A stretch of 32,971 nt of DNA from Myxococcales bacterium. GTDB taxonomy: Bacteria > Myxococcota_A > Polyangia > Fen-1088. A program made the translations under genes and the position numbers. The notes under the pieces were generated by a model. It did not search any database. It was not told the origin of the DNA and was given only the letters and a program-made list of their open reading frames with translations. Of this stretch, positions 9,315 through 30,546 are shown piece by piece. The DNA lies in the NCBI GenBank assembly GCA_003158455.1, contig PMJO01000141.1, forward strand, positions 1 through 32,971, in the 5' to 3' direction. Position 1 is the first letter of the stretch, and each line of letters begins with the position of its first letter.

Positions 9315-10604
9315 ATGGCCGGTCAGCTCTTTGACGTGTTCGTGGTGGGTTCGGCCGATCCCAGCCCCGCCGGGGAGACGCGCCTGGCGTCTGCGCTTTC
9401 GTCGAAACATGGCGTCCCCTTGGCCACGGTGGCCAAGGCGATATCCGCCAAGAACCTGCGCGCGGGTCAAAGCCTAGAGCAGGCGCAGGCGCAAGCTCTG
9501 GTGCGTCAGCTTCAGGTCATGGGAGCTGTCACGGTAATCAGGCCTGCGGCCGGCTTGCCGCGCGCTTCATCGCAGATGCCGTCCACGGCTGGGCCGGGCG
9601 CTGCCGCGCCCAAGCCGCCGGCTATGACCGTGTCCCGATCCGATCACCCTGCCGCTTCTCCTACGACGGGTTCTGCTCCATCGGCGCTTGCCGCCGCAGC
9701 CCCGGGCTTTGGGCCGCCTCTGGTTGCACCCCCTGATCCCGCTTCAGCCAGTGGCTCCTTCGCTCCCCTCCAGCCTGGCAGCGCCCCCGGTTCCCAGCCT
9801 GGTTCTGGCCGTGGTTCTTCGGCCCCGGGGTCCGACCCCTTCGCACCGCGCTCGGCTCCAACTCCAGGCGTGACGCGGCCGACCAGTGGCACGTGGCTGG
9901 CGCCGCCACCCGCTGGATCGCCAACCGGGCGTGCGCGTGCCGGCTCGCGCACACCGCCGCCCGCCAGCCAACAGACCAGCCCCGTGCCTGGCACGGATGC
10001 ATTCAGCACCGACGTCCTGTCGGGGCCCAGGCTTGAGCTGGCACGCGGCGATTCCACCCGTCCTTCTGACGACATGGTGCAGGCCCGCGCCGCCCCATCC
10101 GCGGGTAGTCTGCGCGACATCGGCGCCACCGAATCCTCGGGCGTCGCCGTGGACCAGGATCCCAAGGATCTGAACCTGGTGAGGTGCGCACAGCACGGCC
10201 TGTACTACGACAAGAGCAAGGCCTCGGGTTGTCGCAAGTGCTTGTCGCTGGCTCGCGAGGTGGCCATGAGCTTCGAGAGCCGCAACGCTCCCGCGAGCCT
10301 CAAGGTGGCCAACCTGCGCGATCAGCCGGCCAAGCGGGCCTTCATCGGCCTCGGCGTGGCTTTCCTTCTCGGCCTGCTTCCAGCAGCCTTGTACGCCTTC
10401 GGCCCCGGTTCCGCCGACGCCCGCGAACTCCGTGTGCGGCAGGAGGTTCTCTCGCGCCAGCCCGGCACCGAGGAGATCCTGCACCAATTTGACGAGCTGG
10501 ACGAGCAGGTAAACCGGACGCGCGACCGCTCGCTCCGCAACATTGCCCTGGTGTGGGCTGCCACCTCGGTGGCAGCAATGGCGGGCTGGTACAAGGTCAC
10601 GTAG
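9315..10604 (+). CDS. Unrecognised modular membrane protein with Pro/Ser/Ala linker and zinc-ribbon-like motif
   Basis: Protein of 429 residues from ATG 9315. Residues 1-80 look like a small folded alpha/beta domain (FDVFVVGSADPSPAGETRL at the start, then AKAISAKNLRAGQSLEQAQ). Residues about 85-280 are low-complexity, rich in Pro, Ser, Ala and Gly. C291-x2-H294-x11-C306-x2-C309 forms a likely zinc-binding site. One membrane segment lies at about 340-362 and another at the C-terminus (about 410-428), with a charged helical stretch between them. I do not recognise the family. The start was chosen because of the promoter just upstream and because the folded domain begins there; the longer open frame from 9189 has no support. 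It converges on tatC with an 8-bp overlap of the coding regions. Confidence 0.7.
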   Translation: MAGQLFDVFVVGSADPSPAGETRLASALSSKHGVPLATVAKAISAKNLRAGQSLEQAQAQALVRQLQVMGAVTVIRPAAGLPRASSQMPSTAGPGAAAPKPPAMTVSRSDHPAASPTTGSAPSALAAAAPGFGPPLVAPPDPASASGSFAPLQPGSAPGSQPGSGRGSSAPGSDPFAPRSAPTPGVTRPTSGTWLAPPPAGSPTGRARAGSRTPPPASQQTSPVPGTDAFSTDVLSGPRLELARGDSTRPSDDMVQARAAPSAGSLRDIGATESSGVAVDQDPKDLNLVRCAQHGLYYDKSKASGCRKCLSLAREVAMSFESRNAPASLKVANLRDQPAKRAFIGLGVAFLLGLLPAALYAFGPGSADARELRVRQEVLSRQPGTEEILHQFDELDEQVNRTRDRSLRNIALVWAATSVAAMAGWYKVT

Positions 10605-11583
10605 GAGCAGGCTCGCCGCGATCCAATGCCTCGTCTCGTTTGCGCCGCCCCCGCTCGATCAGCCAGACCACCAGGATCGACAAGTTGTAGAGCAGGAAGA
10701 TCGGGGTCGCCAACAGGCACTGGGTGAAAGGATCGGTGCTGGGAGTGAGGACCCCACCCAGGACCACGGCCAAGACAATGGCGTAGCGGTTGAATTTCCA
10801 CAAACCACGGCTGGAAATCAGCCCAATCCAACCCATGATCGACAGCACCACCGGCAGTTCAAAGGCAAGGCCACATCCGGCCAGGGTCAGCATCTGGAAG
10901 TTGGCCACCTCATCCATCATGATCATCGGCGCGAGATGGAAGTGCGCGTCACCTGGGAAGCTAGTGAGCAGCTTGGTGAGGACGTAGGCGGCCGGCTCGC
11001 ACAGCACGAAGTAGGCGAACACGGCGCCCCCGGCGAAACAGCCCGCGGTGGCCACGGTAATCAGCACGGCGAGCCGCCTCTCCTTGCGATAGAGGCCCGG
11101 CGCCACGAACCGCCAAAGCTCCCAGAACACGAAGGGTCCAGCGACGATGAGGCCTCCGATGATGGCCAGCTTCATGTAGACCCAGAAGGGCTCGGTCAAA
11201 CTCTTGGCGTAGAAATTGAGGCTGTCACCAGCTTCCTTGGGCAGGGCGGCCCGCATGCCCGTGCGCACCGGCCGGGTCAGCCAGTCGAAGTATCTCTCGA
11301 CCAGAACGAACGATCCGATCATGGCCAGGAGCAGGGCGATGGCGGCGTTGCGCAGGCGCGTGCGCAACTCGGACAGATGCTCAAGCAGGCTCATGCGCTT
11401 GCCGTCCAACGCCCCCCTTCCGCTCGGCTCGGACGGAGGAGTTTCCGCCGCTGGCGTGGGCGCGGGCGCTACTGGGTACGGCTCAGCTATTGTGGGCGCA
11501 GGGGCTTCCGCGGCGGGCATCACGTCCGTCGGCGGTTCGGTAATGATGGTCTTGTCGGAGGAGGATACGGCGTCGTCTGACAT
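10597..11583 (-). CDS. tatC: Sec-independent (Tat) protein translocase subunit TatC
   Basis: Protein of 328 residues. TatC is the integral membrane receptor for twin-arginine signal peptides. The core starts at about residue 64 with MSLLEHLSELRTRL, the conserved N-terminal TatC motif. It continues through six hydrophobic segments, including FVFWELWRFVAPGLYRKERR and a FELPVVLSIMGWIG segment. A hydrophilic N-terminal extension of about 60 residues, rich in Pro and Ala, is unusual. The ATG at 11583 lies 6 bp after the tatB stop; ATG at residue 64 is a possible internal start that would give the usual length. The C-terminus is Arg/Lys-rich. It is the last gene of a minus-strand cluster with tatB. 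Confidence 0.95.
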   Translation of the reverse strand: MSDDAVSSSDKTIITEPPTDVMPAAEAPAPTIAEPYPVAPAPTPAAETPPSEPSGRGALDGKRMSLLEHLSELRTRLRNAAIALLLAMIGSFVLVERYFDWLTRPVRTGMRAALPKEAGDSLNFYAKSLTEPFWVYMKLAIIGGLIVAGPFVFWELWRFVAPGLYRKERRLAVLITVATAGCFAGGAVFAYFVLCEPAAYVLTKLLTSFPGDAHFHLAPMIMMDEVANFQMLTLAGCGLAFELPVVLSIMGWIGLISSRGLWKFNRYAIVLAVVLGGVLTPSTDPFTQCLLATPIFLLYNLSILVVWLIERGRRKRDEALDRGEPAPT

Positions 11584-11589
11584 GCTCCG

Positions 11590-12897
11590 CTAGCCTTTCT
11601 TCCGCGGCAACGGGGGCGGGGCCGGCCGAGACGACTTGGCGTCGCCCCGTGGCGGCGGCAGATGGCTGGCCGGCGCGGACCGCAACGATGCCACCGGCAC
11701 AGGGGGCGGACGCTTTGCCACCGGAGCGGGCGGCGGCTCAAGCGACACCGGCTCGGGCGTCAAACTGAGAAGCTCGGGCTCGGGTGTGAGCGGCGGTCGA
11801 TTGGCGTCGGGCGGTGGGTTCATGACCATGGTCACGCCCGAGACCACGGTGCCGCCGGCAGCGGGGCCAGCCGCCGCGGCGCTGGCTGCGGGCGCAGGTG
11901 CCTCGTTCGCCTTGGGCTTTTCCTCGGCCTCCTCGCGCGGCTTGCGTTCCTGCTCCTCTTGTTCCGCGCGCTTCTTGGCCGCCAGCTCCTCGTCGCCACC
12001 CTTCTGCTCGTCGGCTTCGGCCTTTCCCTTTCCGGCCTTCGCACGCGCCTTGCGTTCCTGCTGCTCTTGTTCGGCGCGTTTCTTGGACTCCAACTCGCCG
12101 TCGCGCCGCTTCTGCGCCTCAAGCTCGGCTCGCTGCTTGTCCGCCTCCTCACGCGCCTTGCGTTCCTGCTCCTCTTGTTCCGCGCGCTTCTTGGCCGCCA
12201 GCTCCTCGTCCCGGCGCTTCTGCGCCTCACGCTCGGCACGTTGCTTCTCCGCATCTTCGCGCGCCTTGCGCTCTCGCTCCTCACGTTCCGCGCGCTTCTT
12301 GGCCGCCAGCTCCTCGTCCCGGCGCTTCTGCGCCTCGCGCTCTTCCCGTCGCTTCTCAGCCTCTGCGTTCGCCTTGCGCTCCTGCTCCTCGCGTTCGGCG
12401 CGCTTCTTGGCGGCTCGCTCCTCGTCGCGGAGCTTTCGCTCCTCGCTCTCGGCGCGGCGCCGCTCAGCCTCCTCGCTGGCCTTGCGCTCAGCCTCTTCGC
12501 GGGCCTTGCGCTCCTGCTCCTCGCGCTCGGCGCGCTGCTTGGCCGCCAGCTCCTCGTCGCGGCGCTTCTGCGCCTCGCGTGCGATCCGCTGTTTTTCAGC
12601 CTCCTCGCGCGCTTTGCGTTCCTGCTCCGCACGCTCGGCGCGCCGCTTGGCGTCTTGTTCGGCATCGCGACGCTTCAGTTCCTCGGGCGGAAGCATGGTT
12701 GCCTCGCGCAACTCCGCCAGAGGCTTGCGAATAGCCTCATCCAGTCCGATCTCGCTCTTGATGTCCGCCGCTGCCTTGCGCACTTCGCGAATCGCCTTGC
12801 CCAGCCCCGACGCGATCTCTGGCAGCATGTTGGGCCCAAGGAAGATCAACGCGACGAAGAGAATGACGAGGATCTCCTGAAAGCCGAGGTTCAACAC
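11590..12897 (-). CDS. tatB: TatB-type Tat translocase subunit with long charged repeat helix
   Basis: Protein of 435 residues; typical TatB proteins are about 100-200. The N-terminus MLNLGFQEILVILFVALIFL is the membrane helix with Glu8, a TatB feature, followed by the LGPNMLPEIASGLGKAIREV hinge and amphipathic helix. LGP rather than FGT also favours TatB over TatA. Residues about 82-330 are a highly charged Glu/Arg/Lys/Ala helix made of seven repeats of about 36 residues. The C-terminal 100 residues are Pro/Ala-rich. TatB partners TatC in binding Tat signal peptides. It is followed by tatC after 6 bp, so the pair is an operon. No separate tatA is in the window; this protein could do both jobs or tatA is elsewhere. 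Confidence 0.85.
   Translation of the reverse strand: MLNLGFQEILVILFVALIFLGPNMLPEIASGLGKAIREVRKAAADIKSEIGLDEAIRKPLAELREATMLPPEELKRRDAEQDAKRRAERAEQERKAREEAEKQRIAREAQKRRDEELAAKQRAEREEQERKAREEAERKASEEAERRRAESEERKLRDEERAAKKRAEREEQERKANAEAEKRREEREAQKRRDEELAAKKRAEREERERKAREDAEKQRAEREAQKRRDEELAAKKRAEQEEQERKAREEADKQRAELEAQKRRDGELESKKRAEQEQQERKARAKAGKGKAEADEQKGGDEELAAKKRAEQEEQERKPREEAEEKPKANEAPAPAASAAAAGPAAGGTVVSGVTMVMNPPPDANRPPLTPEPELLSLTPEPVSLEPPPAPVAKRPPPVPVASLRSAPASHLPPPRGDAKSSRPAPPPLPRKKG
11908..12654 (-). repeat. Tandem 108-bp (36-residue) repeats inside tatB
   Basis: Seven units, each starting around A/D-A-K-K/R-R-A-E. Most are 36 residues; unit 2 (residues 118-161) has 8 extra residues and the last is partial. 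Units 3-5 share long identical DNA blocks, pointing to tandem duplication. The composition predicts a single alpha-helix (ER/K-type) or coiled coil. Confidence 0.85.
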
Positions 12898-15606: not shown

Positions 15607-16975
15607 TCAGTATGCCGCGTCGTTGATCACCAAGAGACTGGAACCGCCGTCGCTGACGGCGGTGCCGTTCTTGGTGAAGGAGCCCGAGATCGTGATGCCG
15701 CTGCGGTAGCCCGCCTCATTGCGCCAGACAGCACCCGCAGCGAGAACGACGTTGCCCGTGAACCTAATCTGGATGCCACCGGCACTGCGGCCGACCGTTC
15801 TGAACTGACCCGCAAGGGTTATCGCGCCCGAGGTGTTCGCGAAGGACGATTCCCAAATCATCGGATCGGTCGCAGTGTCGGGCGACGCTCCGGTAATACC
15901 GCCGACGTTGGTGAACGTGACTCTGGGCACATGGTTCGAGGTGTCGTCGCAGACGAAAGCGTTGTAGCCGCCGACGAGGACGAGCTTGTTCTGGCTCATG
16001 TCAATCGCAGTGGTGGTCGTGGCGTCGCCCACGGTGAATGTGATGTTCTCGACGGTCAGGTCGGACAGCGCCTTGAGCGTTCCGCCCGACTTGGCGTTGG
16101 CAAGGAAGATCGTCCCAGCGATCTTCTTGCCCGCGCCCATCGAAATCGTCTCGACACCGGCGCCGCTGAAGGTCGTCTCGGTAGCGGTGTAGACGTTGTT
16201 CTGTGTCAAGTTCTTCTTGACCTCGAAGCCGTATCCGCCCGAGCGACCGTTGACGCTACCGTTGTTGACGAGCGATCCGGTTACCACGACGCCGCTGTGG
16301 TAGTCCAATTCATTCTGCATCGTCGCGCCGGCATTGACCGTCAGGTCGCCTTCGAATGTTACCTGCGTACCGCCAGCGCTGCGACCGACCGTCGTGAGCA
16401 CGCCGTCGATGGTGATGGGAGCGGCCGAATTGGCGAAGATCGACTCGTAGATCGTCGCACCGTCGGCGCAGTTGATGCCGGCGATGTTCGTGTATTTGAT
16501 CCGTGGAACGTGGTTGGAAAGGTCGTCGGTGACCAGGGCCGAAGAGGCGCCGGTCACAAAGAGCTTGAATCCGTTCATGTCGAACGTGCCCGAAATGGTC
16601 GTGTCGGACATCGCAACGGTCACGTTCTCGAGATACACGTCCGAGGTTGCTTTTATCGACTGCGAAGTGTTCGATACCGTGATGGATCCCGTGATCTTCT
16701 TGCCCGCACCGCAGGCGATCGTCTGATCCGTCCCGCCCGTGAATGCGATACTTGGCCCCTCGTAGGTGCCATTCTGTGTGAAGCCTTTCTTCACTTCCAG
16801 CAGCACGCCCGAGGCGCTGTTCTTGATCGTGCCGCTGTTCGTGCAATTGCCCATGACGACGATGCGACTGCGGTAACCCGGCTCGTTCGTTAGCGTTCCG
16901 CCGGCTTCGATCGTCAGGTTGCCGTTGACGGTGGTCGGCGTCTGGCCGTAGGGGTCACCCCTGCCGACGTTCTGA
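15607..16975 (-). repeat. 2.3 copies of a ~195-residue protein repeat
   Basis: Repeat starts are marked by VGR(S/G) at about 16968, 16388 and 15797. Each unit contains a T/N-E-x-x-Y-x-S-x-I/V-x-V motif, EVKK-x-x-TQN, GAGKKI-x-G-x-I and SNHVPR. The third copy is cut short by the C-terminus. The DNA is diverged, so the duplication is old. Confidence 0.8.
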
Positions 16976-19104
16976 AGCGAGCCACCCGATTTGATCGTGA
17001 GACTATTGCAGGGCGTTTCGACAGCGATGACGACCGGTCCGTTTATTTCGACATCGTTCGCGGCTTTAGGAACAACATTCTCGATCCAGGTCGAGGTATC
17101 CGACCAGCTTCCGCCACTGGTGGTCGAGTGAATAACGGTAGGGCATGGTGTGGCGCCGCCGCAGCCGGGAGGCACGCCAGCATCGGAGCCGGTTCCGGCT
17201 GCGCTATCGAGCCCGGCCGCGCCGTCGACGGTGGGGGAGTCTGCGGCGCTGCCATCCTTAGCGTCAGCCTTGGCTCCCACGTCGCTCTGGACCAGGTCAA
17301 TCCCGCCGTCCTGGCCGCCGCCCGACAGCGAGTAGCCGTAAACCCAGGTCACGCCGCGGTTGCCAAGATCGGCCGTGTAGGCCCAGGTTGTCGGATCCGA
17401 ATCGATCACTTGGTAGGTTCCGGCCGGAACCGTCGCTCCAGGATAGGCCATCCAGTAGTTGTCAGGCGGACCGGGAATGTTCCCGGGATCGCTCCGGGTG
17501 GCGCCCAGCGTGCCTGCGTAACTGCTGTAGCCCACCTGGGCCCAGGGACCGTAAATGGTTCCACTGGTCGTGTCCTTGAACGCAACTGTCGGGCTCTTGG
17601 TGCCAATAGTCGCCGCGTAGTGATAGGTCCACACACGCGTGATGTACGACGCCGTGGGCAGGGTGAAGGTCGTGATCTGCGGCGGGTTGTACGACACGCC
17701 CGCAAGCGACTCCATCTTGAACAGTATGGTCTCTTGCCCGTTCCCGGTTCCGCCGACCTCCATCGTCGTTCCGGCCATGTCGGGCACAGTCCCGCCGCCG
17801 TCTCGGCCGCCATCCGCCCGGCTGCCATCGGCCAGACCGCCATCCACCCGGCTACCAGTGGGCGGGCCACCATCAGTCCGGCTGCCATAGGCGGGTCCGC
17901 CATCAGGCGTGGCGACCACCAGCGATGGCAGTACCTTGTAGTGAATGCGGGCCGTGACCCGTAGCGGAGACGCAACCGCGCCGACCGCGATATGATAGGC
18001 GGTGGCGGCAATCCCTTCGTTCTTGTCGGCCTGGTTCACGTAGGATTTCCAGTACTTGAATCCCTTTCCGTTTTCTTCGGGATGGAAGATGCTGCTCGAC
18101 GACTCTGTTATCGTGCTGGCGAAATAGTTACCGCTGGCCACTCCGAAATCCACAGTGGGCATGGGCTTGCTGTCGGTCTCAGCCTTGGTCTCGTCGACCC
18201 AGCGAAGCTCCAGCAACATGCTCGCATGCGTGTTGGCGTCGGCGGCATCATTGCCGTCGCAATCGTGGGTGTCGAGCCTGAAGGAAGACGACGACGAGTC
18301 CACCACGGCGACCTTGCGAATAGTCCGGTAACCAGAAGAGTCGACCGAGCCGCAGTCACTGGTATCGGTCATGACGGTCCCAATACCGAGGTTCGGTGCA
18401 TTGAAAGCCACAACCCCAAAACTGGGGTGATACCAAAGCTCTGCGCTGATTAGTTGATTCCTGAGGATCGCTGGAATGCCGACGCTGTCGCTCGATGCCT
18501 GGCCACTGTAGTGATTGCACCCGGACAGCGGCCCCACACCCGTCTGCACCGTTGCGTTCTTTTCTTCCAGCGTGTATTGCCCAGTTACGTTGGCGGTGCT
18601 GGTGGCGTGGGTATCGCCCTGCATGAGCGTCCCGCTGGTCGTCACCGATTGGGGCTTATTGAGGGGCGGTTCGAGATTGACCTTTATCGGCGTAGTGAAG
18701 GTCATACTGGCGGGCTGCAGAAAGCCGTTGGCCAAGCTGGTGTGGCGGTATCCGGCGAAATCTATGGTTTCATCGGAATTCTCCTTGATCCAATACTCGC
18801 CGCCCTTGCTCGAATCGTCGGCCCGCGTGGTCGCCAAGCGATCGTAGCTGGTTCCACCGACAGTCTGCCTCCCGACGACGGTTGTGACCTGTGAAATGTT
18901 GGTATCTGTGGACAAACTCCCCGCCAAAGACGACGGGGAAAGCGTGAGAGTGGAGCGTACTTGCGTGGTAGGCGTTTTGGGCCCGTAGGGTGCGGTCGCG
19001 CCGTCGAATTCCTCACCTTTGCTACACCCCGCGAATGCAAGGGCCAAGCACAAGCAGAACCATTGAGAGCGCAAGGACAAAGCAATGGACAGGATCTTCA
19101 TCAT
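15607..19104 (-). CDS. Large surface lipoprotein with Gly/Asp-rich linkers and repeated beta-solenoid-like region
   Basis: Protein of 1165 residues from ATG 19104, which has GAGG 9 nt upstream; the frame opens further upstream but without a ribosome site. The signal peptide ends in LALAFAGC, a good lipobox. Residues about 30-410 are an unrecognised Thr/Ser-rich secreted domain. A linker with repeated D-G-G-x-A/P-x-G-S-R motifs (about 405-450) follows, then a beta-sandwich-like domain to about 600. Next is an Asp/Ala/Gly linker with a CGGATPC segment. The last 470 residues open with a G8-like SGGSWSDTSTWIENVVPKAA motif and then contain 2.3 copies of a roughly 195-residue unit, read as a right-handed beta-helix or similar solenoid. 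It is likely exposed on the cell surface. No enzymatic residues can be identified; adhesion or polysaccharide binding is a guess. Confidence 0.75.
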   Translation of the reverse strand: MMKILSIALSLRSQWFCLCLALAFAGCSKGEEFDGATAPYGPKTPTTQVRSTLTLSPSSLAGSLSTDTNISQVTTVVGRQTVGGTSYDRLATTRADDSSKGGEYWIKENSDETIDFAGYRHTSLANGFLQPASMTFTTPIKVNLEPPLNKPQSVTTSGTLMQGDTHATSTANVTGQYTLEEKNATVQTGVGPLSGCNHYSGQASSDSVGIPAILRNQLISAELWYHPSFGVVAFNAPNLGIGTVMTDTSDCGSVDSSGYRTIRKVAVVDSSSSSFRLDTHDCDGNDAADANTHASMLLELRWVDETKAETDSKPMPTVDFGVASGNYFASTITESSSSIFHPEENGKGFKYWKSYVNQADKNEGIAATAYHIAVGAVASPLRVTARIHYKVLPSLVVATPDGGPAYGSRTDGGPPTGSRVDGGLADGSRADGGRDGGGTVPDMAGTTMEVGGTGNGQETILFKMESLAGVSYNPPQITTFTLPTASYITRVWTYHYAATIGTKSPTVAFKDTTSGTIYGPWAQVGYSSYAGTLGATRSDPGNIPGPPDNYWMAYPGATVPAGTYQVIDSDPTTWAYTADLGNRGVTWVYGYSLSGGGQDGGIDLVQSDVGAKADAKDGSAADSPTVDGAAGLDSAAGTGSDAGVPPGCGGATPCPTVIHSTTSGGSWSDTSTWIENVVPKAANDVEINGPVVIAVETPCNSLTIKSGGSLQNVGRGDPYGQTPTTVNGNLTIEAGGTLTNEPGYRSRIVVMGNCTNSGTIKNSASGVLLEVKKGFTQNGTYEGPSIAFTGGTDQTIACGAGKKITGSITVSNTSQSIKATSDVYLENVTVAMSDTTISGTFDMNGFKLFVTGASSALVTDDLSNHVPRIKYTNIAGINCADGATIYESIFANSAAPITIDGVLTTVGRSAGGTQVTFEGDLTVNAGATMQNELDYHSGVVVTGSLVNNGSVNGRSGGYGFEVKKNLTQNNVYTATETTFSGAGVETISMGAGKKIAGTIFLANAKSGGTLKALSDLTVENITFTVGDATTTTAIDMSQNKLVLVGGYNAFVCDDTSNHVPRVTFTNVGGITGASPDTATDPMIWESSFANTSGAITLAGQFRTVGRSAGGIQIRFTGNVVLAAGAVWRNEAGYRSGITISGSFTKNGTAVSDGGSSLLVINDAAY

Positions 19105-19349
19105 TTCGGTTTTCCTCAGGTTAGGAGCGGTTGGGCAACCCTGCCCCCGACGCACGCGCCACTAGTGGCAACATAGTAACATAGGCGCGACCGGAGGACT
19201 TGCGCCACCGGCACCAGTGACGCACTGAGGGCGGCTTTTCTTGCTGGCGGGGATCACGGGATAGGGGCCGCGGTAGGTCTGGGTGGGATAGCCGGCAACC
19301 TCAATCGCCACGCACTATGCGCTCGTGAACCGGGCGGACGCCGGCAATC

Positions 19350-27444: not shown

Positions 27445-30400
27445 GTGCGGTTCGTAGCTGACCTGCATATCCACTCCTATCTATCGCGAGCAACCAGCAA
27501 GGAGCTGAACCTGGAACAACTCCAATGCTGGGCCCAGCGCAAAGGGATTGCCGTGGTCGCCACCGGCGACTTCACCCATCCGCGTTGGTTCGCGGAGCTG
27601 CGCGAAAAGCTGGTGCCTGCCGGCGACGGCCTCTATGCCCTGCGCGAGGAATCGGCCAGGGCAGTGGATGCCGAGGTTCCTGCCGCCTGTCGCGCGCCGG
27701 TGCGTTTCATGTTGTCGGTCGAGGTCAGCAGCATCTACAGCCGCGGCGATCGGGTGCGCAAGGTACACAATCTCATCTACGCGCCCGACTTCGAGTCAGC
27801 GGCGCGCGTGTCGTCACGCCTGGCCCGCATCGGCAACATCGAATCCGATGGGCGCCCAATCCTCGGCGTCGACTCACGCGACCTCTTGGAGATCACGCTC
27901 GCATCCTCGCCGGATGCCTTCTTGATCCCCGCGCATATCTGGACTCCCTGGTTCTCCGCCTTGGGCTCGCAATCGGGTTTCAATTCGATTTCCGAGTGTT
28001 TTGCCGATCTCGCGGACCACGTCTTCGCGGTCGAGACCGGTCTCTCGTCCGACCCGGCCATGAACTGGCGCCTTTCCGCCCTGGATCGCTATGCCCTCGT
28101 GTCCAGCTCCGATGCCCATTCGCCGGACAAGCTGGGTCGCGAGGCCAACCTGTTCGACTGCGATCTCTCCTACTTCGCCATGCGCGACGCGCTCCGCGCG
28201 CGCGGGGCAGGCTTTCTCGGCACGCTCGAGTTCTTCCCCGAGGAGGGCAAGTACCACGCCGACGGCCACCGCAAGTGCGAGGTGGTGATGACACCGGAAG
28301 AGTCGGCGGCCTGCGGGAAGACCTGTCCGCGCTGCGGAAAGCCTCTCACCGGCGGCGTGTTGGGACGGGTGGCTGCGCTGGCTGACCGGCCCGCGGGTTT
28401 TCGGCCCGAAGGTGCCAAGCTCTTTGCCAGCCTGGTGCCGCTGCCCGAGGTCTTGGGCGAGGTGCTGGGCGTGGGGGCAGGCAGCAAGAGCGTACGTAGC
28501 TCCTGCCAAAAACTGGTAGAGCGGGTCGGGCCCGAGCTGACCGTCTTGCGAGACGCGCCGCTGGAGGACCTGGACCGCGAGGGTCCACCGCTGCTTGCCG
28601 AGGCTCTGCGCCGCATGCGCGCGGGCGAGGTAATACGGCAAGCTGGCTATGACGGCGAGTACGGCGTCGTGCGCATGTTCAATGAAGAAGAGCGCCTCCG
28701 TTTGCTCGCGCAAACTGCCTTCGCTTTCACCGGCGTGGCGGTCGCTCCCGCCGAAAAAACCAAGGCCGCTTCAGCGATGCGTCCGGCTAGCGAAGAAACT
28801 GCGACGGACCACCTCGGCGGTCCCAACCTCGAACAGGAGGCGGCTATTGCCCACGACGAGGGACCGCTGCTCGTCGTTGCGGGCCCGGGCACCGGCAAGA
28901 CCCGCACCCTGGTGGAGCGGATTGCGCGCCTGCTGCGTGACCGCGCGGCCGCGCCGGCTGAGATCACCGCCATCACCTTCACGCGCAAGGCAGCGACCGA
29001 GTTGCGTGAGCGCCTGGCCGCGCTCCCGGGCACGCGCGCCAGCGGCATCTCGGTGCAAACCTTCCACGCGCTTGGTCTCGATCTGCTGCGGACGCACGCC
29101 GCTGCGGCCGGGCTGCCACCGCACTTCGCGATCCTCGACGAGGTGGGGCGGCAAGCCCTGCTCGCTCGCGTGCACGCGCAGGTGGGCGCGTGCACGCTGT
29201 CGCCGGCGCGGGCGGGCAGTGCGATCTCGGCGGCCAAGGCCGCGCTGATCGCGCCCGCCGATGCGACGCCAGAATTGGCAGCGGTCTACGCGGCCTATGA
29301 AAAGGCACTGGCAAGTGCAGCTTCGGTGGATTTCGACGATCTGGTAGGTCGTGCTGTCCATTTGCTGCAGACCGATCAAGCTGTACTCGCTTCCGCACGC
29401 CGTCGCTGCCGTCACCTCCTGGTAGATGAGTATCAGGACATCAATGCGGCCCAGTACCGATTGGTGCGCCTGCTCGCGCCCGCGGAGCGGTTGACAAATC
29501 TGTGTGTGGTCGGCGATCCCGATCAGGCCATCTACGGCTTTCGTGGGTCGGACCCGTCGTATTTCGCCCGCTTTGCCGCTGACTATCCCGGGGCTCGCAC
29601 CCTCACGCTCGCCCGCAACTACCGTTCCGTCGCGGCGGTCGTGCGCCTGGCCACTGCCGTCATCGAACGCACTCCCGGGCGGGCCGGGCGTCCGCTGCAG
29701 CCGCTCCACGCGCGCGGGAGCAAGGTCATCGGCCAGGTTCTTGCCGATGAGCGAGCCGAGGCGGACTACATTGCCGCCGAGATCGAGGCGCAGGTTGCAG
29801 GCACCAGCTTTCTTTCCATGGACGCGGGCCGCGCTGCCGACGGGCACGGACTCGCCTTCCACCAAATCGCGGTGCTGGTGCGCTTATCGGCCCAGGCTGA
29901 TGTCATCGAAGAGGCGCTCGACCGAGCCGGGATTCCCTGTCACCGCCGGGGCGACGACGCCTTCGCCGCGCGCCCGCACGTGGCAGACATCCTGGCAAAG
30001 CTGCGCCGGCATGTCGAACACCACGCCGTGGACAAGGATTGTGAGCCGGTCGCCGAGTTGCTCGCCACCCTGGTTCCCAACGCCGCGGCCGATCAGCGCC
30101 GCCTGCGCGCGCTCGATCTCCTGCGCGCCTTCGCCGTGCCCTTTGCCTCCGATGCCGCCGCCTTCCTGTCCGAGATGGCGTTGGCGCGCGAAACCGACCT
30201 GCAGTATCTCCCGCAAAAGGTGGCGCTCTTGACCCTGCATGCCAGCAAGGGCCTGGAGTTCCCGCTGGTCTTCATCGCCGGATGCGAAGATGGCCTTCTT
30301 CCTCTGCGTCTGCCCTGGCTGCCGCCTGCCGACGTGGAAGAAGAACGTCGTCTGCTCTACGTGGGTGTCACCCGGGCGCAGCAGCGCCTGATCTTGACTG

Positions 30401-30546
30401 CGGCTTCCCACCGCACCCTGGCCGGCCGTGCGGTCGAGAATCGCCCCTGCCCGTTTCTCGACGACTTGCCGTCCGATCTGCTCGCCACCTCTCGCTCAGC
30501 CCCGCGTCGCCGCAAAGCGCGCCAACTGTCCCTATTGAAATTCTAA
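27445..30546 (+). CDS. EndoQ-like PHP nuclease fused to UvrD/PcrA-type helicase
   Basis: Protein of 1033 residues from GTG 27445. Residues 1-~435 match the endonuclease Q / TIGR00375 group of PHP-fold proteins: DLHIHS with Asp6, His8 and His10, ATGDFTHP (39-46), SVEVSSIY with Glu93, PAHIWTPWF (162-170), SSDAHS with Asp223 and His225, and a four-Cys zinc motif C278/C290/C294/C297. EndoQ cuts DNA on the 5' side of deaminated bases and abasic sites. Residues ~455-1015 are a superfamily 1A helicase: Walker A AGPGTGKT (479-486), Walker B DEYQD (661-665), DPDQAIYGFRGS, LTLHASKGLEFPLVFI and the motif VI YVGVTRAQQRL near 972. All motifs look intact. A lesion nick followed by unwinding is the obvious combined role, but this is inference. 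No accessory repair gene is adjacent. Confidence 0.85.
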   Translation: MRFVADLHIHSYLSRATSKELNLEQLQCWAQRKGIAVVATGDFTHPRWFAELREKLVPAGDGLYALREESARAVDAEVPAACRAPVRFMLSVEVSSIYSRGDRVRKVHNLIYAPDFESAARVSSRLARIGNIESDGRPILGVDSRDLLEITLASSPDAFLIPAHIWTPWFSALGSQSGFNSISECFADLADHVFAVETGLSSDPAMNWRLSALDRYALVSSSDAHSPDKLGREANLFDCDLSYFAMRDALRARGAGFLGTLEFFPEEGKYHADGHRKCEVVMTPEESAACGKTCPRCGKPLTGGVLGRVAALADRPAGFRPEGAKLFASLVPLPEVLGEVLGVGAGSKSVRSSCQKLVERVGPELTVLRDAPLEDLDREGPPLLAEALRRMRAGEVIRQAGYDGEYGVVRMFNEEERLRLLAQTAFAFTGVAVAPAEKTKAASAMRPASEETATDHLGGPNLEQEAAIAHDEGPLLVVAGPGTGKTRTLVERIARLLRDRAAAPAEITAITFTRKAATELRERLAALPGTRASGISVQTFHALGLDLLRTHAAAAGLPPHFAILDEVGRQALLARVHAQVGACTLSPARAGSAISAAKAALIAPADATPELAAVYAAYEKALASAASVDFDDLVGRAVHLLQTDQAVLASARRRCRHLLVDEYQDINAAQYRLVRLLAPAERLTNLCVVGDPDQAIYGFRGSDPSYFARFAADYPGARTLTLARNYRSVAAVVRLATAVIERTPGRAGRPLQPLHARGSKVIGQVLADERAEADYIAAEIEAQVAGTSFLSMDAGRAADGHGLAFHQIAVLVRLSAQADVIEEALDRAGIPCHRRGDDAFAARPHVADILAKLRRHVEHHAVDKDCEPVAELLATLVPNAAADQRRLRALDLLRAFAVPFASDAAAFLSEMALARETDLQYLPQKVALLTLHASKGLEFPLVFIAGCEDGLLPLRLPWLPPADVEEERRLLYVGVTRAQQRLILTAASHRTLAGRAVENRPCPFLDDLPSDLLATSRSAPRRRKARQLSLLKF

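Follow-up and report, generated by a model that had tools for sequence, protein, structure and literature searches.

In the Pyrococcus furiosus endonuclease Q (PfuEndoQ) the substitutions E76A, H84A and H139A each abolish cutting, and normal bases are excluded by H139, G169 and S171 (PMC8307549; the functional roles of PfuEndoQ residues referred to below are taken from this review). A C-terminal PIP box mediates both the binding of archaeal EndoQ to PCNA and its stimulation, and the presence of clamp motifs in the C-termini of bacterial EndoQs has already been pointed out (PMC4858679). In bacteria the consensus for clamp binding reads QL[S/D]LF or QxxLF, and the affinity for the clamp may be weak even for a motif that conforms to the consensus (PMC12309361). 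For the step after EndoQ incision, removal mediated by a helicase is one of two models put forward for archaea (Shiraishi, PMC4357722). Among the superfamily 1A (SF1A) helicases, deletion of the 2B subdomain turns the Rep monomer into an active helicase (PMC13238157).

We report that the window, i.e. the whole stretch of 32,971 nucleotides of Myxococcales DNA that was analysed, carries an uninterrupted open reading frame (27445..30546, + strand; GTG start) for a 1033-residue product with homology both to EndoQ and to UvrD/PcrA-type helicases, and that fused relatives of it occur in over 12 phyla. The sequence-only reading of the two halves as one polypeptide is thereby confirmed. Along the protein, the EndoQ homologue (residues 1-413) is followed by a disordered linker (residues 414-460; 28684..28824, +) and the SF1A helicase (residues 461-1004), and the domain searches proposed in that reading returned TIGR00375 in the N-terminal half and Pfam UvrD and UvrD_C in the C-terminal half. 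An AlphaFold model, based on an alignment of 44 fused sequences, has a mean pLDDT of 86.3 and two confident modules; pLDDT values below 50 are confined to residues 428-457 (in the linker), 788-800 and 1021-1033, and at a pTM of 0.56 the relative placement of the EndoQ and helicase modules is not defined by the model. Using Foldseek, the model matched PfuEndoQ (5zb8) with a TMt of 0.89-0.90 and solved UvrD with a TMt of about 0.77-0.78, and the C-terminal half matches PcrA, UvrD1 and UvrD structures. A chimera generated by misassembly or a frameshift was ruled out on the basis of the approximately 100 independent fused loci and the same architecture in the close relatives L020 and L021.

The EndoQ module (27445..28683, +), assigned by homology to PfuEndoQ, comprises a PHP domain, a zinc module and a C-terminal domain, and its residues 5-413 align with residues 5-384 of PfuEndoQ (phmmer E 1e-44), covering the full EndoQ length. 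For residue comparisons, 240 EndoQ domains were aligned, namely PfuEndoQ together with 99 fused, 22 split and 118 standalone domains. The Pfu residues H8, H10, D42, E76, H84, H139, D193 and H195 correspond here to the PHP metal ligands H8, H10, D42, E93, H108, H164, D223 and H225 (27466..28119, +), and the base-pocket residues H139, G169 and S171 of PfuEndoQ to H164, G199 and S201 within the same interval; both sets are essentially invariant in the whole alignment, the 99 fused proteins included. The PHP metal ligands noted in the sequence-only reading are thus all kept on the PfuEndoQ alignment. The four-Cys zinc motif of that reading, however, has to be revised, as the ligands predicted by homology to PfuEndoQ are H275-x2-C278 ... 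C294-x2-C297 (28267..28335, +), i.e. a His-Cys3 set. PfuEndoQ has four Cys at this site, and the position of its C249 is His in 97 of the 99 fused proteins, the remaining three Cys being invariant; the His-Cys3 set is also present in most bacterial standalone homologues.

The placement of the N-terminal half in the EndoQ/TIGR00375 group is upheld by the similarity to PfuEndoQ, although its TIGR00375 score of 147.3 bits is under the cut-off of the model (326.6). This cut-off is narrow, since in four other phylum samples it is passed by just one of the 394 genomes that have a match. Roles of PHP domains in proofreading-like reactions or end trimming are known elsewhere, and the low score would be compatible with a PHP half that has drifted to another phosphoesterase activity, e.g. 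a proofreading-like one or the trimming of 3' ends, which would prepare ends for the helicase instead of incising lesions. We regard such a drift as improbable, given that the metal ligands and the lesion-pocket residues are conserved in the fused proteins, that EndoQ is retained in its entirety, zinc module included, and that standalone EndoQs of Desulfobacterota and Omnitrophota likewise score under the TIGR00375 cut-off. As a separate observation, two Omnitrophota standalone EndoQ genes (L227:3587-5908, -, in genome G1179; L228:1759-4089, +, in genome G1135) have, adjoining the base pocket, an in-frame insertion of approximately 360 residues. The intein N-terminal splicing signatures of these insertions score 25.0 and 21.2 bits, respectively (cut-off 24.5), and the insertions are apparently inteins.

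The SF1A helicase module (28825..30456, +) matches Pfam UvrD-helicase (E 8e-70) and UvrD_C (E 2e-36), and the complete motif set earlier ascribed to the C-terminal half is present. Specifically, Walker A (AGPGTGKT, residues 479-486; 28879..28902, +) is found in 93 of 93 fused proteins and motif II (DEYQD, residues 661-665; 29425..29439, +) in 91 of 93, while motif III (GDPDQAIYGFRG, residues 690-701; 29512..29547, +), motif V (TLHASKGLEF, residues 930-939; 30232..30261, +) and motif VI (LYVGVTRA, residues 971-978; 30355..30378, +) were identified in the alignment of fused helicases. The scores are under the equivalog cut-offs of pcrA, uvrD and rep (412.7 bits compared with 911; the remaining models score lower). 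All sequence features predicted to be required for EndoQ-type incision and SF1A unwinding are accordingly kept, here and in approximately 100 relatives.

A gap in the UvrD1 alignment and the spacing between motifs IV and V mark a reduced 2B region (residues 855-905; 30007..30159, +). On direct alignment the 2B subdomain has approximately 43 residues here compared with 140 in UvrD1, and the motif IV-V spacing is 208 residues, with medians of 219 in 81 fused proteins and 279 in canonical helicases. The spacing is approximately 147 residues in most Omnitrophota split helicases, and in some members it is up to 300 residues, corresponding to a nearly full 2B, and therefore the truncation is not essential. 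Judged by alignment and spacing, this protein and most EndoQ-linked helicases have a truncated form of the autoinhibitory 2B subdomain. Moreover, there is a clade-specific insertion, AGTSFLSMDAGRA (residues 785-797; 29797..29835, +), with the consensus GGxSFFSLDSGR. Its GG is kept in 95-98% of the fused and split helicases, and the insertion is mostly a gap in canonical UvrD/PcrA and largely disordered in the AlphaFold model; at the level of the alignments it is a marker of EndoQ-linked helicases.

The protein terminates with a clamp-binding-like motif, QLSLL (residues 1027-1031; 30523..30537, +), followed by KF and the stop codon, and in the AlphaFold model this motif is part of a disordered tail. 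Q1027 is invariant in the 44-sequence alignment; the fifth residue is Leu rather than the consensus Phe, and in terms of sequence QLSLL is a poorer match to the clamp consensus than QLSLF. Most relatives have a QLxLF-type C-terminus. Of 76 complete fused proteins, 46 have the strict form, QLxL[FL], and 66 a loose form within their final 12 residues. The corresponding counts among 3193 other reading-frame ends are 0 (strict) and 8 (loose), the shuffle rate is 0.0014, and the motif is absent from the C-termini of all 11 canonical helicases tested. A QxxLF-like copy is also often present at the EndoQ-helicase junction of the fusions, where EndoQ is expected to end, e.g. QLSLF (L083), QTSLF (L090), QADLF (L072) and also QMNFF; the junction sequence in the present protein is degenerate (QTAFAF, residues 423-428; 28711-28728). 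In the split pairs described below, the majority of the EndoQs, and likewise the majority of the helicases, terminate in a clamp-like motif of their own. Relative to PMC4858679, the novel elements are the clamp-like motif at the C-terminus of the helicase half and its duplicate at the junction. The proposal of a self-contained repair initiator is refined accordingly, since the clamp-binding-like tail suggests that the fusion works with the sliding clamp and is not fully self-contained.

How often the two halves are fused, a survey suggested by the sequence-only reading, was addressed using approximately 100 fused loci from more than 12 phyla and samples of several phyla. Nearly all of the best 80 relatives in a genome scan cover both halves, and these 80 include Actinomycetota, Myxococcota, Bacillota, Melainabacteria, Pseudomonadota, Planctomycetota, Thermodesulfobacteriota, Elusimicrobiota, Chloroflexota, Binatota, Bacteroidota, Verrucomicrobiota, Fibrobacterota and Gemmatimonadota, among others. 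In evenly drawn samples a gene was scored as fused when the TIGR00375 match was inside an open frame of at least 850 residues; frame length is a proxy for fusion, which agreed with the fetched loci where the two were compared. By this proxy the fusion is present in 12 of 284 Myxococcota, 4 of 247 Actinomycetota and 8 of 193 Omnitrophota genomes; in the Bacillota-group sample it is present in approximately 27 of 250 genomes, and in the Geobacter-phylum sample in 51 of 198. In three genomes of the Bacillota sample (G443, G476 and G296) a fused EndoQ-UvrD coexists with a standalone EndoQ, which suggests that the two have different duties.

At 22 loci (12 in Omnitrophota, six in the Desulfobacterota sample, two in Myxococcota and one each in Nitrospirota and Bacillota) EndoQ and the helicase are encoded by separate adjacent genes on the same strand, always with EndoQ upstream. 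The nearest possible helicase start overlaps the EndoQ stop by 4 nt at one extreme and is several hundred nucleotides downstream of it at the other; the overlaps, ATGA or GTGA, were found in L007, L008, L216 and L222 (ATGA in L007 and L008). For most of these pairs we rejected sequencing errors as an explanation, as EndoQ's own clamp motif usually comes just ahead of the stop and some have 4-nt overlaps, while the pairs in L200 and L246, which are in frame and lack the clamp motif at the EndoQ end, may be broken fusions. That no partner gene is beside the fusion, as noted earlier, is correct for this locus and not for its relatives, in which the halves themselves are neighbouring genes. The two halves are fused in some genomes and adjacent in others, and this therefore constitutes independent evidence of joint action.

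To follow the ancestry of the two halves we used quick trees without bootstraps. In the EndoQ tree the linked (fused or split) members cluster, their distinction from standalone members requiring only four changes, and that between fused and split requires six. In the helicase tree all 55 linked helicases are separated from the 11 canonical UvrD/PcrA-type helicases (SH-aLRT 98), and the earliest branches within the linked clade are split pairs (L234, L236, L241, L242 and L075) with near-canonical 2B spacing. With moderate support (84-93), this branching order suggests an ancestral state of two genes, which later became fused while 2B was reduced. Together with the adjacent gene pairs, the parallel clades formed by the two halves lend independent support to the coupling of nicking and unwinding first proposed from the sequence. 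Three EndoQs within the linked clade (L198, L239 and L249) have no detectable adjoining helicase, and here the helicase may have been lost secondarily or relocated elsewhere.

Comparison of the surroundings of these loci across phyla gave no recurrent neighbours beyond generic families (ABC, dehydrogenase) and synteny in Micromonosporaceae. Elsewhere in the window, a tatC gene adjoins a gene for a 435-residue protein with a TatA/B domain in its first 50 residues and a long C-terminal extension (10600-12897, -), and a reading frame of 1182 residues (15610-19155, -) has no Pfam match at E 0.001. The host genome also carries a UDG-family gene scoring above the cut-off and another, separate UvrD, and the predicted repair route would therefore be redundant in this host, with the fusion enzyme as an extra route rather than the sole one.

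The neighbourhoods also bear on whether the protein might be an anti-phage nuclease-helicase, analogous to Gabija and directed against modified (e.g. dU-containing) phage DNA. An antiviral role has been suggested for Bacillus EndoQ (PMC8307549), and the helicase half does score on the PADLOC GajB and DRT helicase models, but these match UvrD-like helicases generally. None of 72,556 plasmids gave an EndoQ match, and among phage records there was likewise none covering 80% of the fusion protein, which argues against a mobile defence system; nor does a neighbourhood of defence genes or mobile elements recur, and the co-inheritance in many phyla resembles that of housekeeping repair. Taken together, a role in phage defence appears very improbable.

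We favour, with some confidence, the fusion as a clamp-tethered nick-and-displace enzyme that initiates excision repair independently of a glycosylase. The observed C-terminal tail would tether the protein to the beta sliding clamp, and the EndoQ module, by analogy with characterised EndoQ and in view of its conserved pocket residues, would flip a deaminated base or an abasic site into the pocket and cut the phosphodiester 5' of the lesion. The fusion would then pass the nick straight from incision to unwinding: the SF1A motor would load onto the intact strand at the nick and, with the polarity of the UvrD/PcrA family, move 3'-5'. Since a motor on the intact strand runs 3'-5', geometry predicts displacement of the 5'-ended strand that carries the lesion. 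The truncation of 2B should permit unwinding by a monomer, as in Rep lacking 2B, and a DNA polymerase would extend the 3'-OH, after which repair would be completed by ligase together with a flap or 5' nuclease.

The order of events could also be the reverse, with the motor translocating on or opening the DNA before incision and EndoQ cutting the lesions encountered, unwinding from the nick being secondary. EndoQ cuts dU and dI in single-stranded DNA (PMC6202378, PMC11354406), and the long disordered linker of the model would permit either order; single-strand abasic sites are, however, poor EndoQ substrates (PMC6202378), and truncation of 2B favours unwinding rather than translocation alone (PMC13238157). 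We therefore consider scanning before incision rather unlikely and retain nicking followed by strand displacement as the preferred reading. Whether this extends to an unrecognised glycosylase-independent route in bacteria of many phyla, with a clamp-tethered EndoQ that nicks 5' of deaminated bases and a dedicated fused or adjacent SF1A helicase that displaces the lesion strand, has mostly lost 2B and belongs to a clade that evolved specifically for this purpose, is in our judgement evenly balanced.

Both halves are of known kinds. We found no description of an EndoQ-helicase fusion in the literature, of which few subscription papers were covered, and the co-inherited, 2B-reduced and clamp-tagged combination is not described in the papers found. 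How the DNA is processed after EndoQ incision has been a question since the discovery of EndoQ in 2015, and a fused, co-inherited helicase with a clamp-like tail offers a concrete, testable candidate answer for bacteria. Moreover, the EndoQ-linked lineage provides natural SF1A helicases in which the autoinhibitory domain has been reduced repeatedly, a point of relevance to the regulation of UvrD-family motors.

Compared with the known endonucleases Q (PfuEndoQ, TkoEndoQ and Bacillus pumilus EndoQ; TIGR00375/COG1379), which are approximately 400 residues long and have no helicase, the fusion keeps the ligands, the base pocket and the zinc module, and its C-terminal clamp motif parallels the PCNA-binding PIP box of archaeal EndoQ, whereas its first zinc ligand is His and not Cys and the members with a fused or operonic helicase form a cluster distinct from the standalone type of Bacillota. 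With PcrA, UvrD, Rep and UvrD1 it has the core motifs and core fold in common, and 3'-5' polarity is expected; however, its helicase belongs to a separate clade with a mostly truncated 2B, an N-terminal nuclease, a C-terminal clamp motif and the insertion, located between motif IV and the FYRTNAQ-like stretch. Gabija (GajA-GajB) likewise combines a nuclease with a UvrD-like helicase, but the fusion has an EndoQ nuclease, no TOPRIM/ATPase GajA in or beside it and no defence neighbourhood. In RepD-PcrA and MutL-UvrD a partner activates an SF1A monomer at a nick, which may be analogous, although there the partner rotates 2B while the fusion has 2B reduced and the lesion nickase in the same chain. 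Finally, the excision repair model for P. furiosus EndoQ/EndoV (PMC4357722) would share with the fusion the incision chemistry and the later removal by a helicase, which in the bacteria studied here is attached covalently or operonically, with no EndoV seen beside the fusion.
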